A stretch of 22,144 nucleotides of DNA from a virus. Under the pieces are notes generated by a model that was given only the letters and a program-made list of their open reading frames with translations, made no database searches and was not told where the DNA came from. Positions 12,901 to 18,636 of this stretch are shown here, one piece after another; within the stretch, counting starts at the first letter, position 1, and every line of letters begins with the position of its first letter. The DNA lies in the IMG/VR virus record IMGVR_UViG_3300048589_000791, positions 1-22,144 of that record. One strand, written 5' to 3'. The translations under genes were made by a program, and so were the position numbers.

Positions 12901-13097
12901 GATGGCATCCCCACGGCTACGGCGGCCGACGCCGGGATCCCGAGCAGGTCAAGCGCGAGGGTTGGCAGGAACAGGGCGTCCTCGCGGTCTCCGCCGATGA
13001 CGACCGCCTCACCTGGCCCGAGCGTGAACTGGTCCGCCAGCTCGGCGAAAAGCTCTACGGCCCGCGTCCCTCCGACGGGGAGGCGCGCCATGGCTGA
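12897..13097 (+). CDS. Small hypothetical protein between RuvC-like and DUF6362-like genes
   Basis: A 66-aa hydrophilic protein beginning MRWHPHGYGGRRRDPEQVKR, then EGWQEQGVLAVSADDDRLTW, and ending in a polar, charged tail. It overlaps the RuvC-like stop by ATGA and the following start by 8 bp, which is typical of a co-translated phage operon. SRL-type DNA-binding motifs are not visible; a short helix (WPERELVRQLGEKLYG) may mediate protein contacts. No family is recognised. Third-position G/C bias and tight packing support that it is translated. Confidence 0.7.
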   Translation: MRWHPHGYGGRRRDPEQVKREGWQEQGVLAVSADDDRLTWPERELVRQLGEKLYGPRPSDGEARHG

Positions 13098-13470
13098 TCG
13101 CGAATGGACCGCCGACTGCGTCGCCGATCATTTCGAGGAGGCGTTCCGCACCCTGCGCAAGCTGCCGCCGGTGAAGGCGCAGGGCTACTTCAACACCTGG
13201 CCCGACATCGTGCGGACCAGCCGCGAGATCGCGGCGATGGAGCCGCAGCCGATGCGGGTCTGGCCCTCGGCCGCCGCGATCACCCGGCTCGAGCAGACCT
13301 TCGACTGGGTGCTCTGGATTGAGGAGGCGGAGCGCAAGCTGGTCTGGTCCCGCGCAGCCCGTGTGCCGTGGAAGCAGATCAGCGGCGAGCTGGGGTGCGA
13401 CCGCACGACCGCATGGCGGCGTTGGCAGCTGGCACTGACCAAGATCGCTGCGCGCCTGAATGCGCAGTGA
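13090..13470 (+). CDS. DUF6362-like helix-turn-helix protein
   Basis: A 126-aa protein. The C-terminal part (ARVPWKQISGELGCDRTTAW then RRWQLALTKIAARLN) is a sigma-region-4-like HTH. The N-terminal part (WTADCVADHFEEAFRTLRKL then KAQGYFNTWPDIVRTSREIA) is helical with conserved-looking aromatics. I believe this corresponds to DUF6362, a family seen in alphaproteobacterial phages, though the name is from memory. ATG 13090 is preceded by GGGGAGG. It is the last gene of the rightward replication block. Two dyads follow, including the strong hairpin at 13539-13573 that likely ends transcription. It could be a late-gene activator or antiterminator, given its location before the modification and packaging genes; that is inference. 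Confidence 0.8.
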   Translation: MADREWTADCVADHFEEAFRTLRKLPPVKAQGYFNTWPDIVRTSREIAAMEPQPMRVWPSAAAITRLEQTFDWVLWIEEAERKLVWSRAARVPWKQISGELGCDRTTAWRRWQLALTKIAARLNAQ

Positions 13471-13477
13471 CTCCAAT

Positions 13478-13573
13478 GTGTTGCAACACTTTTTCCTTCG
13501 ACATCTGCAACATGATCGTGCTATTCCGAAGGCAAGATGGGGAGAGTGCGCTGGAAAGCTCGCTCTCCCCTTT
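13478..13573 (+). terminator. Terminator region ending the replication operon (palindrome plus strong hairpin)
   Basis: Just after the stop at 13470, GTGTTGCAACAC (13478-13489), a perfect 12-bp palindrome, is followed by TTTTT (13490-13494). Further on, GGGGAGAG (13539-13546) pairs perfectly with CTCTCCCC (13563-13570) around a 16-base loop and is followed by TTTGCATTTG. The second hairpin is a credible Rho-independent terminator for the plus strand and sits 8 bp from the end of the antisense gene at 13581. It may therefore serve both convergent units. The first could instead be an operator. Confidence 0.6.
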
Positions 13574-13580
13574 GCATTTG

Positions 13581-14174
13581 CTATTGGTCAGTGGGCTTCT
13601 TCTGCAGCGACTTCCGGATAGATTCCTCAAAGCGCTCCGGCCGAGAGAAATAGAAGGAGATCTCTTCGTTCGGCAAAGGCTGACCAGGCTGAGGCGGCTG
13701 GCCATCATCGCCTGTAGGTGGCTGACCGGGCGTGAACACCTCTCGCGCTAGCGAGACCACATCGTCACGCAAGTGCCCGAAGCCGACTTTGGCGTCCTGA
13801 TAATCGGCGAGAAAGCTCGCCGCCGAAGATGCAATGGTTATCGTTGAAGCCACGATGACAGCTCCAACTTGAATTTTGGCGAGAACCGAGCCAGCCTCGT
13901 AGCTGATACTGATGACAGTCAAGCGTTCAAGCAGCAGAAGCTGTTCATCTACTCCCAAGGTTTCCGAACGCCGCTCTGGCTTGAATGCGAACTCGCGAGG
14001 ATTGACCCCGTCCAAGCGGGTTTGAAGAATACCGAGCCGTTCGACGAAATAGGGTAAGTCGTTCGACTGTGCGCCAGTACGAACGAAGTCAGCAAAGTTG
14101 CGGTCGGACAATCGATAGGAAATCGTCCCAACATAGGCGGTAAAGCGACCTTCGCCCAATTTCGAATCTACCAT
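13581..14174 (-). CDS. Antisense single-TM protein of unknown function (cargo/moron)
   Basis: A 197-aa protein encoded against the surrounding phage genes. Codons are less G/C-biased than in the flanking replication genes, which suggests separate acquisition. The N-terminal half is soluble (TAYVGTISYRLSDRNFADFV, then LGVDEQLLLLERLTVISISY). One hydrophobic segment, at ~101-122 (KIQVGAVIVASTITIASSAA then SFLADY), is a likely membrane helix. The tail is Pro/Gln/Gly-rich (FTPGQPPTGDDGQPPQPG) and ends in a basic stretch (SIRKSLQKKP). No signal peptide or known family is seen. ATG 14174 has GGAG nine bases upstream; the frame runs open to 14549, but that part looks non-coding. Placement, own terminator and composition fit a lysogenic-conversion or defence/exclusion gene. 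The function is not known. Confidence 0.75.
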   Translation of the reverse strand: MVDSKLGEGRFTAYVGTISYRLSDRNFADFVRTGAQSNDLPYFVERLGILQTRLDGVNPREFAFKPERRSETLGVDEQLLLLERLTVISISYEAGSVLAKIQVGAVIVASTITIASSAASFLADYQDAKVGFGHLRDDVVSLAREVFTPGQPPTGDDGQPPQPGQPLPNEEISFYFSRPERFEESIRKSLQKKPTDQ

Positions 14175-14215
14175 CGCGAACAGCTCCAGGATGACGCAAG
14201 CTACTGGTATGCGGG

Positions 14216-14431
14216 ATGTATTGCCGCTGTGAAGCGAAATCCGCCGCTGGGTGGATGAAGAGCCTCGGATCGGTGATGACTGAAAGGCGGGCACCACGGG
14301 GTTTCCGGTTCCTTCTGCGCGACATTCGTATGCTGGCGGGCGAAGCGCGGGACATCGCCAGCGACAGGGCCGGATTTTTGGGAAGCCACCCGGAAGCCGG
14401 AGCCACTCGCGCGCTGCGCAAACCCCAATGA
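14216..14431 (+). CDS. Doubtful small frame in the gap before the ParB-methyltransferase
   Basis: The 373-bp gap 14175-14547 holds one plus-strand frame of 71 codons. Its central part reads ERRAPRGFRFLLRDIRMLAG, with a basic amphipathic look, and its stop overlaps an ATG at 14428 (ATGA) that is in frame with the following methyltransferase. No Shine-Dalgarno stands out and no family is recognised. The gap also repeats short CCGGAG/CCGGAAGCC words (14383-14512) with no clear order. It may be a small phage gene, a remnant, or untranslated sequence upstream of the methyltransferase. Confidence 0.25.
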   Translation: MYCRCEAKSAAGWMKSLGSVMTERRAPRGFRFLLRDIRMLAGEARDIASDRAGFLGSHPEAGATRALRKPQ

Positions 14432-14547: not shown

Positions 14548-15924
14548 ATGACGCTGAGCTTCGCCCCGGACGCGATCGAGACCTGGCCGCTGTCGCGCCT
14601 CCAGCCCTACGCGAAGAACGCGAAGGCGCACGGGGCGGACCAGGTCGCGAAGATCGCCGCCAGCATGGCCGAGTTCGGCTGGACCGTGCCGTGTCTCGTC
14701 GGCGAGGACGGCGAGCTGATCGCGGGACACGGGCGCGTGCTGGCCGCCACACAGCTCGGGCTGACCGAGGCGCCGGTGATCGTGCTCGGGCATCTGACCG
14801 AGGCGCAGCGCCGGGCGTATCGGATCGCGGACAACAAGCTGACCGAACTCGGCACCTGGGACGAGGCGCTGCTGTCTGCGGAACTGAACGATCTGCTGGC
14901 CGAGGATTTCGACCTGTCGCTGGTCGGCTTCTCGGACGGCGAACTCGACAAGCTGCTGGCTTTCGTGCCGGAGGGGGACGTTGAAGAAGGTGGCGCCGGG
15001 GGCTCCGTGCCGCCGGTAACCATCCCCGAGCCGCCGCGCAATCCTGCGTCGCGTACCGGCGATCTCTGGATCCTCGGCGACCACCGGCTGCTCTGCGGCG
15101 ACAGCACCAGCGCGGCCGATGTGCGCCGCCTGATGAACGGCGAGCGGGCGATCCTGTTTGCCACCGATCCGCCCTATCTGGTGGACTACGACGGCTCGAA
15201 CCATCCGACCCGCAACAAGGACTGGTCCGCGTCCTATGGCACAACTTGGGACGACTCCTCTCAGGGCGCGGAGCTCTACGACGGCTTCATCGCTGCGGCG
15301 GTCGCCGAGGCCATCGCCGAAGACGCCGCCTGGTACTGCTGGCACGCCTCGCGCCGCCAGGCGATGCTGGAGGCCTGCTGGGAGAAGGCGGGCGCTTTCG
15401 TCCATCAGCAGATCATCTGGGTGAAGGATCGTGGGGTTCTCACCCGCTCGCATTACCTCTGGAAGCACGAGCCGTGCTTCATGGGCTGGCGTCGCCCGAA
15501 CCGTCCGCCGAAGGTGGCGGAGCAGACGCTGCCGTCGACATGGGAGATGCCGTCCTTCGCCAAGGACGAGCGCCCGGACCACCCGACGCCGAAACCGCTC
15601 GACGCCTTCGGGATCCCTATGCGCTGGCACGTCGCCCGTGGCGGCCTCTGCTACGAGCCGTTCTCGGGGTCCGGGTCGCAGATCATGGCGGGCGAGGCCA
15701 ACGGCCGCCGGGTCTTCGCGATGGAAATCAGCCCGGCCTACATCGATGTCGCCGTGGAACGCTGGCAGGCCGAGACCGGCCGCGACGCGATCCTCGACGG
15801 CGACGGTCGGAGCTTCGCGCAGGTAAGGACCGAGCGGCTGGGCGACGACGCCGCCCCCGCGGCAGATACGCCGGACACGGACGCCGCCCCCGAGCCCGCG
15901 CGAAAGCGCAAGACCGCTGCGTGA
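14548..15924 (+). CDS. ParB-domain DNA N6-adenine methyltransferase (DPPY, beta-type order)
   Basis: A 458-aa fusion. Residues ~10-110 form a ParB/Srx-like nuclease-family domain with the box ELIAGHGRVLAA. After a linker rich in G/V/P comes a methyltransferase: ATDPPYLVDYDGS (DPPY at 207-210, catalytic) and later YEPFSGSGSQ (~370, SAM-binding FxGxG). Catalytic motif first and SAM motif second is the beta-class order. DPPY points to N6-adenine, though N4-cytosine cannot be excluded. Phage ParB-methylase fusions like this modify viral DNA, plausibly for evading restriction or timing packaging. ATG 14548 was chosen at the start of the ParB-like domain; GAGGAA lies 12-17 bases upstream. An ATG at 14428 would add 40 Pro/His/Trp-rich residues. 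No partner endonuclease is adjacent. Confidence 0.92.
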   Translation: MTLSFAPDAIETWPLSRLQPYAKNAKAHGADQVAKIAASMAEFGWTVPCLVGEDGELIAGHGRVLAATQLGLTEAPVIVLGHLTEAQRRAYRIADNKLTELGTWDEALLSAELNDLLAEDFDLSLVGFSDGELDKLLAFVPEGDVEEGGAGGSVPPVTIPEPPRNPASRTGDLWILGDHRLLCGDSTSAADVRRLMNGERAILFATDPPYLVDYDGSNHPTRNKDWSASYGTTWDDSSQGAELYDGFIAAAVAEAIAEDAAWYCWHASRRQAMLEACWEKAGAFVHQQIIWVKDRGVLTRSHYLWKHEPCFMGWRRPNRPPKVAEQTLPSTWEMPSFAKDERPDHPTPKPLDAFGIPMRWHVARGGLCYEPFSGSGSQIMAGEANGRRVFAMEISPAYIDVAVERWQAETGRDAILDGDGRSFAQVRTERLGDDAAPAADTPDTDAAPEPARKRKTAA

Positions 15925-17176: not shown

Positions 17177-17617
17177 ATGGCACTTTGGAACTGGTTCAAA
17201 AAAGCACCGGAGCCTGACCGACTCACCGTCAGTGAGATCATGGAGAACCGTCTTTTCTTCACTCGCAAGAAGAATAGACACGGGTATGTTGTTGAGGCTG
17301 AAAAATCTATCGACGAAGCATTTCATCTTTTTCGGCTGGAGCTATTTAAACTCCGAATGGCGGAAATTGGTGTATCAGATGATTGGGTAAAGCAAAACTC
17401 TCCGATCAAAGTTGAAGTAGAAGACCTCCCGGAGCTCAGTCAAATGAGCAGGCGAGAGCTCGATGCTTTGACAAGGAAGCTCCAGTCAATTGAGTATCTT
17501 CGTTCAGAAGTCATCGTGGCTTCGGCTCGGCTAGCAAAGCAAGCAAAGCTTGCACGACATAGGAAACATGAGGCCGAGGCGGGTCAGGCGGAAGGGCCAA
17601 AGAAAGACTTAATCTGA
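17177..17617 (+). CDS. Hypothetical protein, first gene of an A/T-richer two-gene module
   Basis: A 146-aa soluble, charged, mostly helical protein. It starts MALWNWFKKAPEPDRLTVSE, has a basic segment (FFTRKKNRHGYVVEAEKSID) and a likely helix EAFHLFRLELFKLRMAEIGV, and ends in a long charged helix (LRSEVIVASARLAKQAKLAR then HRKHEAEA). The DNA is visibly richer in A/T than the methyltransferase and terminase genes around it, with A/T-ending codons, so the pair was probably acquired separately. No family, signal peptide or membrane segment is recognised. Its stop shares a base with the next ATG (TGATG, 17615-17619), so the two proteins are probably made together. That suggests a functional pair such as toxin-antidote, effector-partner or an exclusion system, but function is unknown. 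Confidence 0.75.
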   Translation: MALWNWFKKAPEPDRLTVSEIMENRLFFTRKKNRHGYVVEAEKSIDEAFHLFRLELFKLRMAEIGVSDDWVKQNSPIKVEVEDLPELSQMSRRELDALTRKLQSIEYLRSEVIVASARLAKQAKLARHRKHEAEAGQAEGPKKDLI

Positions 17618-18636
17618 TGAAAGCAGAAGACGGAAAAGAAAGTCAAGAGGATCATCGACCGCAAGCTTGGTCGTACGATCTTTTGGTTGAATCTTTATGT
17701 GCGTCGATTGGTAACGATCTGAATACCTCATCTGGAAAGTTAAGAACCCTATTGGGAACATCTCATGGGTATTTTTCCAAGTCCGCCATGCAGGAGTACG
17801 AGTCGCACCTCAGCGAAATGATACAGTCAGCGGGAATTAAGCCTCATTCCGACACGATTAACGCATTTGCTCACGCCTACGCATCTGCGCTCATATACGT
17901 ATCGACCAGTCAATATCTATCGGAAAACTTAGGTGGGCAAGTGGCTACCGTTTTGGGAAATATGAAGGAAACCAGCTACAGGGAAGTGATCGGATTGAAG
18001 GGAGACACAAAGGCCGACTCGATCAAGGATCAGCTAGACAATGCCCTCGGAAGAGATGTGGGGCGCTACATCATTTCAACCGGAGGCGGAGTTTCCGACA
18101 TTCCGCAAGTCTTGGTGGATCGCTATTTTAATGGAGACTTTTATCTTCTGGAGCCGGACGAAGCCACGATCGTGCACAGTGATGGATTGCCATTTGGGAC
18201 GGTTGTCGGCGGTGATTTAATCATTGAAGGGGCGCCATCTCATTTGTCATTGGAATCAAGAGATGAGCTTTATAGCCCCGATTTTGGCTGGCCAGACCTT
18301 GAAGCCAGTCTGGATAACTTGTTTGAAAATGGCATAACAAGCCAAACTTCGCTTGATATAAGTGGTTATGATATTTTCGGTTTTAGTCACTTCGACTATG
18401 GCATCGAGAGCTCCAGTGATCACCTCGAGAACGACGACTCAGGTCAGGGCGAACACTCAAGTGACGGTAGCGATCGGCATGACGCCTATGACAATGACTT
18501 GCAGGAGGGAATAGAAATGAACGATCTAAGTGATGTTGGTGGATATTCGTCTGGTGTTGCCGCCAATGAGAGAGATGGACAAAGTGGTAACTTTAACAAT
18601 CTCGATCACCGGAGCCCCGGGAATACATCAACCTAG
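17617..18636 (+). CDS. Hypothetical protein with AFxHAY...DNxxGR pattern and disordered acidic tail
   Basis: A 339-aa protein and second gene of the A/T-richer pair. Residues ~80-150 read TINAFAHAYASALIYVSTSQ, then after ~40 residues KDQLDNALGRDVGRYI. An A-F-x-H-A-Y helix and a distal D-N-x-x-G-R helix resemble, loosely, the DUF6973-type domain seen at the ends of some secreted or toxin-like proteins; this match is tentative. A short segment VDRYFNGDFYLLEPDEATIV follows. The last ~90 residues are Asp/Ser/Gly/Asn-rich (SSSDHLENDDSGQGEHSSDG) and probably disordered. No signal peptide or membrane helix is seen. It converges on the small leftward gene ending at 18688, without a clear hairpin between them. 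The role is unknown; a cargo toxin or defence effector is inference. Confidence 0.75.
   Translation: MKAEDGKESQEDHRPQAWSYDLLVESLCASIGNDLNTSSGKLRTLLGTSHGYFSKSAMQEYESHLSEMIQSAGIKPHSDTINAFAHAYASALIYVSTSQYLSENLGGQVATVLGNMKETSYREVIGLKGDTKADSIKDQLDNALGRDVGRYIISTGGGVSDIPQVLVDRYFNGDFYLLEPDEATIVHSDGLPFGTVVGGDLIIEGAPSHLSLESRDELYSPDFGWPDLEASLDNLFENGITSQTSLDISGYDIFGFSHFDYGIESSSDHLENDDSGQGEHSSDGSDRHDAYDNDLQEGIEMNDLSDVGGYSSGVAANERDGQSGNFNNLDHRSPGNTST

Follow-up and report, generated by a model that had tools for sequence, protein, structure and literature searches.

The stretch of DNA analysed here, which we call the window, is a virus record of 22,144 bases that carries a serine recombinase, replication-type genes, two DNA methyltransferases and a GpA-type terminase. 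Between two of its backbone genes lies an intact frame of 197 codons on the minus strand, referred to below as the cargo gene (Table 1). The genes on either side, encoding a DUF6362 protein and a ParB-domain DNA methyltransferase, are both on the plus strand. This orientation against the neighbours had been pointed out in the original prediction for the locus and was confirmed, as was a less G/C-rich composition: the cargo gene has a GC content of 0.547 and a GC3 of 0.60, compared to 0.685-0.693 and 0.83-0.89 in the three nearest backbone genes. The Pro/Gln-rich part of the protein, likewise predicted, was located to a stretch near residues 149-170.

Elsewhere in the window, two adjacent AT-rich genes at 17177-18636 (146 and 339 aa, GC 0.475-0.478, GC3 0.48) sit between a C5-methyltransferase and the terminase small subunit. 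Their best family match had an E-value of 0.026, and none was above the curated cut-off. This region is possibly a second cargo site.

Table 1. Positions in the window of the cargo gene and of the elements that surround it.
Feature	Position	Strand	Basis
DUF6362 gene, predicted helix-turn-helix protein, left anchor	13090-13470	+	PF19889, E 9.9e-37
Conserved noncoding block 1 (backbone): palindrome, promoter-like sequence, hairpin	13469-13569	+	DNA search, conservation
Palindrome GTGTTGCAACAC, directly 3' of the DUF6362 gene	13478-13489	+	sole exact copy in the window
Promoter-like TTCGACA...TGCTATTCC, flanked by palindrome and hairpin	13497-13527	+	conservation
Backbone hairpin with plus-strand T-run, not cargo	13539-13570	+	core in 41 contigs; 45 variants
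Slot A, insertion slot (737 bp in the window; roughly 70-80 bp in most relatives)	13570-14306	.	block comparison
Cargo gene (P0001), 197 aa, without known family	13581-14174	-	frame call; relatives L001, L003, L004; purifying selection
Conserved promoter-like block in the insert, its end 10 nt ahead of the cargo start	14185-14242	-	three-copy identity
Conserved noncoding block 2 (backbone), right border of the slot	14307-14388	+	conservation
ParB-domain DNA methyltransferase gene, right anchor	14548-15924	+	family match; start by comparison with L001

The cargo gene and its product

Relatives of the cargo gene were sought in genome and viral contigs by exact peptide words, and distant relatives may therefore be missed. 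Three records carried the gene: L001, a Rhodobacteraceae MAG record held in genome G001, L003 and L004. L003 matches the window at 100% identity across 15,180 bp and is one phage with it. The independent copies are therefore three in number, namely those of the window, L001 and L004. All of them sit antisense at one and the same junction, and the start and frame are kept in all three. Breakage of the frame in relatives, named beforehand as the outcome that would speak against the prediction, was looked for and was absent; the frame had no internal stop in 3/3 records holding relatives. When the relatives were compared against the window, pN was 0.13-0.14 and pS was 0.75-0.78 (saturated), and dN/dS between the two diverged relatives, L001 and L004, was 0.035. 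Because of the low pN relative to pS and the low dN/dS, we count the cargo gene as a selected protein gene, which by these substitution ratios is under strong purifying selection.

The family was found in three phages of two DUF6362 lineages (L001 being of type II) and in only one of 394 Rhodobacteraceae genomes, G001. Beyond G001, none was detected in 385 genomes of the class except for two weak matches (L130 and L131), which we rejected as chance, and a tblastn search of phage and plasmid records gave no match. Within the sequences searched, the cargo family is rare. The DNA of block 1 was present in 23 of the 394 Rhodobacteraceae genomes. Aligned codons of the window and L004 genes were 71% identical, compared to 97.1% identity for the left and 90.0% for the right flank. 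The cargo gene has diverged far more than its flanks and has therefore moved or been exchanged independently of them.

Upstream of the cargo gene, 33 of the 58 positions of the promoter-like block were identical in the three copies, as opposed to 14 of 76 fourfold-degenerate sites. Other offset triples (941,098 in number) gave at most 21 identical positions out of 58, although the stretch was picked after viewing the alignment and this control answers for the selection in part only. A scan for consensus promoters returned no minus-strand site. Judged by its conservation, the block is probably the gene's own promoter and is treated here as a candidate.

The protein belongs to no recognised family, in agreement with what had been stated originally. 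P0001 had no match at E ≤ 0.1 in Pfam or PHROGs, none at E ≤ 10 in NCBIfam, and 0 PADLOC families at E ≤ 1; for the L001 and L004 proteins, 0 PADLOC families matched at E ≤ 0.1. One PHROG match at E 7.3, obtained in the family searches of the cargo protein and its relatives, was counted as nothing, and the best PDB sequence matches (E 1.4 and E 0.029) were judged to be chance. Two AlphaFold2 models made from the same three sequences, with mean pLDDT values of 59.5 and 50.9, were both mixed alpha/beta. With the 59.5-pLDDT model as query, fold searches found nothing at E ≤ 0.001, and VIA-align reached a Z of at most 5.9 to assorted alpha/beta folds, from which we drew no function.

A single transmembrane (TM) helix had also been predicted. 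Such a helix could hold a cytoplasmic domain at the inner membrane, where it would block entry of the DNA of related phages, and the gene would then serve superinfection exclusion. In each of the three copies the Kyte-Doolittle maximum, taken over 19 residues, is 1.87-1.88, which would fit this, as would a 135-aa protein, membrane-like by eye, in the same slot of L152 and L190. However, this hydropathy is borderline, the supposed segment (near residues 97-120) contains a lysine, 7 of its residues are missing from both diverged relatives, and it forms a beta strand in both low-confidence AlphaFold2 models. The helix was not confirmed and appears doubtful on both sequence and models, and we consider superinfection exclusion from a membrane anchor quite unlikely. 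The cargo product is probably a soluble alpha/beta protein, an assignment of low confidence.

The hairpin and the DUF6362 gene

A strong hairpin next to the cargo gene had been predicted and is indeed present, with a stem of -24.2 kcal/mol alone and a z of -3.5 in context. Its reading as the gene's own terminator did not hold up. The exact 25-nt core of the hairpin was found in 41 viral contigs, 2 of which have the cargo gene. In the 39 core-bearing contigs without it, the backbone resumes directly after the hairpin. The distance from the hairpin start to the methyltransferase start was 338-379 nt in the 33 of these 39 contigs with the start in reach, compared to 983 and 1,009 nt in the two cargo carriers. 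Among 45 aligned hairpin variants, the stem keeps 11-13 pairs and the inner stem and loop vary. On the plus strand, 40/45 variants had 5 or more T among the 8 bases that follow the stem, and the minus side never had more than 4; in two of the 45, only 2-3 T follow the stem. These 45 are drawn from 48 distinct forms, and the three left out include the altered form of L004, which folds less distinctively (z -1.3). As the core occurs mostly in cargo-free contigs and the T-run is on the plus strand, the hairpin belongs to the rightward strand of the phage, and by its distribution and strand it is part of the phage backbone, not a terminator of the cargo gene. An insert in L141 deletes the 3' arm, and therefore the hairpin is not indispensable.

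A simple terminator scan listed none on either strand, and Rfam gave nothing at gathering score in the window, nor at E ≤ 0.5 in L012. The four kinds of antisense cargo seen in type I slots all come to an end 12-18 nt away from the point where the block 1 match stops. Given this spacing, a common stop point for antisense cargo genes near the end of block 1 is possible.

The DUF6362 frame is open from 12997, and its start was set by comparison with the type II protein. Two sub-threshold matches to helix-turn-helix (HTH) domains were obtained for the protein. DUF6362 falls into two lineages, 41% identical (window versus L001), both of which match PF19889. Immediately after the type I gene, TGTTGCAACA was present in 90/93 distinct regions, and the type II gene was followed by a TGTnYGSCRGACA-type palindrome in 65/70; no crossing between types was seen among these 93 type I and 70 type II regions. 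The 8 non-matching regions contain near variants, and a few, including L258, have no such palindrome. Type I loci were partly gathered by block 1 DNA patterns, and the pairing of protein and palindrome is confounded by common ancestry. From this arrangement we consider DUF6362 a candidate phage regulator with its own operator. The term DUF6362 was absent from the open-access papers searched. The DUF6362 gene, a type-specific palindrome, a promoter-like sequence and a GGGAGAGnGCG stretch occur together at 13090-13569 of the window and in loci L233-L312.

The insertion slot and its occupants

The cargo gene occupies a slot between two conserved noncoding blocks. The start of block 2 is present in most type II loci as well, and block 2 is found in both DUF6362 lineages. 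Block 2 also carries a GCTGGCG...CGCCAGC inverted repeat and a T-run. Among distinct sequences with both blocks, the slot was empty (<115 bp) in 105/123, intermediate (118-241 bp) in 7 and occupied (349 bp or more) in 11; this count omits 13/225 loci in which block 1 was present and block 2 gave no match, of which 12 have 600 or fewer bases left and the other is L157. Slot, interval and palindrome tallies are of distinct sequences, and the tally of 225 is of loci, several per contig.

In 18/181 distinct sequences, the interval from DUF6362 to the methyltransferase was over 250 bp longer than its median, versus 1/178 for the neighbouring interval from the resolvase to DUF6362 (Fisher p 5e-5, uncorrected for relatedness). 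The idea that all phage junctions are equally variable was rejected on this one neighbouring junction. The 18 enlarged intervals comprised 13 in slot A, 3 beyond block 2 (L123, L167 and L232) and 2 without a recognised block 2 (L310 and L311). Part of the loci were gathered by block 1 DNA patterns, which leads to an under-count of inserts destroying block 1, and the counts draw on 80 of 507 matches in one set and 80 of 139 in another. We conclude that the junction is very likely a cargo hotspot and the 197-codon gene accessory cargo.

Inserts were also seen at a second position, between block 2 and the methyltransferase gene, in L122/L167, L123, L232 and L093/L095. This interval measured 300 bp or more in 5/109 distinct intervals, and in L123 it holds a nitronate-monooxygenase-like gene. 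HNH-like frames were noted by eye in L122, L157, L310 and L311.

The other occupants of the junction are varied. A 359-aa Fic protein in the type I slot of L126 matched SoFic (PADLOC PDLC03963) at E 9.2e-48, and a SoFic-like Fic gene (E 1.5e-50) accompanies a TacA1-type antitoxin gene in the type II locus L258. These Fic genes lie antisense in the interval of both lineages, as does the 197-aa family. A MazE and Fic/Doc pair was found in the type II locus L273 and a similar pair in L304; the type II interval of L001 holds the 197-aa family. Type I slots also contained a VRR-NUC protein (L220), a beta-lactamase-fold gene apparently split across two frames, and proteins of 189, 199, 98 and 135 aa with no Pfam or PADLOC match. 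Most cargo kinds of the slot lack a defence match, and with the split beta-lactamase-fold gene this indicates that the slot is not purely a defence site.

The presence of MazE-Fic/Doc pairs and of a TacA1-type antitoxin gene in the same interval of other phages raises the question of whether the cargo gene is half of a toxin-antitoxin or addiction unit, its partner being encoded elsewhere or consisting of a small RNA. However, no second conserved frame accompanies it in the slot, and in L004 it is the only slot frame of 45 aa or more; we regard such a unit as decidedly unlikely. The shared position of the gene in the methyltransferase gene leader of three phages would also suit a phage function in the lytic cycle or in regulation, for instance in modulating the methyltransferase transcript, with the gene having been lost from most relatives. 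This is very improbable, as most of the distinct sequences have an empty slot and unrelated genes occupy the same place elsewhere. That the frame is spurious and merely antisense to a noncoding leader, as its missing family matches might hint, has practically no chance of being correct given the substitution ratios and the start and frame kept in three copies.

Proposed explanation and relation to known systems

The explanation that we favour, and consider quite likely, is that temperate Rhodobacteraceae phages have an insertion hotspot here and that the cargo gene is one of its accessory fillings. The conserved flanks would let cargo be swapped by homologous recombination. In the lysogen, the gene would be transcribed leftward from its own promoter, and its transcript would run out against the backbone hairpin, which would itself mark where the rightward transcript of the phage begins. 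The product would help the lysogen, most plausibly against competing phages, since SoFic-like Fic genes and MazE-Fic/Doc pairs occupy the slot in other phages. By analogy with this other cargo, action of the cargo protein against phages can be suggested tentatively. Against the favoured explanation we count the missing consensus promoter on the minus strand, the small number of independent copies, three, and the chance that an antisense cargo gene could hamper the rightward transcript.

The cargo gene is an accessory gene in a phage cargo hotspot and encodes a protein of an unrecognised family. A broader reading is unlikely as a whole. In it, the 197-aa protein would be the first of a new anti-phage effector family, in an undescribed hotspot of two Rhodobacteraceae prophage lineages and behind a new late-control element (DUF6362 with its cognate palindrome, plus a promoter and a transcript-start hairpin). 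Among the matches listed from the open-access literature, none named such hotspots in this bacterial group. Two genome surveys, one covering Rhodobacter capsulatus phages (PMC8601537) and the other alphaproteobacterial phages (PMC10783043), do not contain the terms moron, hotspot or DUF6362.

A bordered slot in many alphaproteobacterial prophages offers a site at which to search for candidate genes of phage competition, and some slot genes already match known defence families. The pairing of DUF6362 with its palindromes provides a concrete and testable candidate for a phage regulator.

A moron in the strict sense is a gene with its own promoter and its own terminator. The moron-like character proposed originally was supported by the mostly empty slots of other phages (105/123), the deviant composition, the strong selection and the conserved promoter-like block. 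As it has no terminator of its own, we class the cargo gene among accessory hotspot genes and do not call it a strict moron. One study (PMC7067206) describes a gene that a prophage carries antisense to the lytic genes and under its own promoter, in a region called characteristic of accessory loci. Like prophage accessory (moron) loci, the cargo gene is antisense, missing in relatives, deviant in composition and equipped with a candidate promoter; unlike them, it has no terminator of its own and is followed by a hairpin that belongs to the backbone.

The SoFic system (PDLC03963; PMC12249575) is linked to the 197-aa protein by position, a SoFic-like gene lying in the same interval of L126 and L258, whereas no relation in sequence was found. 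In layout, the slot resembles the P2/P4-type hotspots with anti-phage systems (PMC9122126): in both cases a small, high-turnover locus lies between conserved phage elements, and part of the cargo matches known defence families. The slot differs in its phage group, in its anchors (DUF6362, the ParB-domain methyltransferase and two noncoding blocks), in inserts that are smaller, with one or a few genes, and in that defence is represented here by profile matches only.

In lambdoid phages, cargo lies behind Q in the Q - pR' - tR' region. For this region see an Stx-phage paper (PMC6266700). In our phages, DUF6362 is at most a candidate antiterminator or activator, and its pairing with the palindrome is confounded by ancestry. 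The order of elements is nevertheless alike, with a resolvase, a small regulator-like gene, a promoter-like block with a hairpin, a cargo slot and a run of genes ending in the terminase. By this analogy, we infer that the DUF6362 locus may resemble the lambdoid Q late switch.
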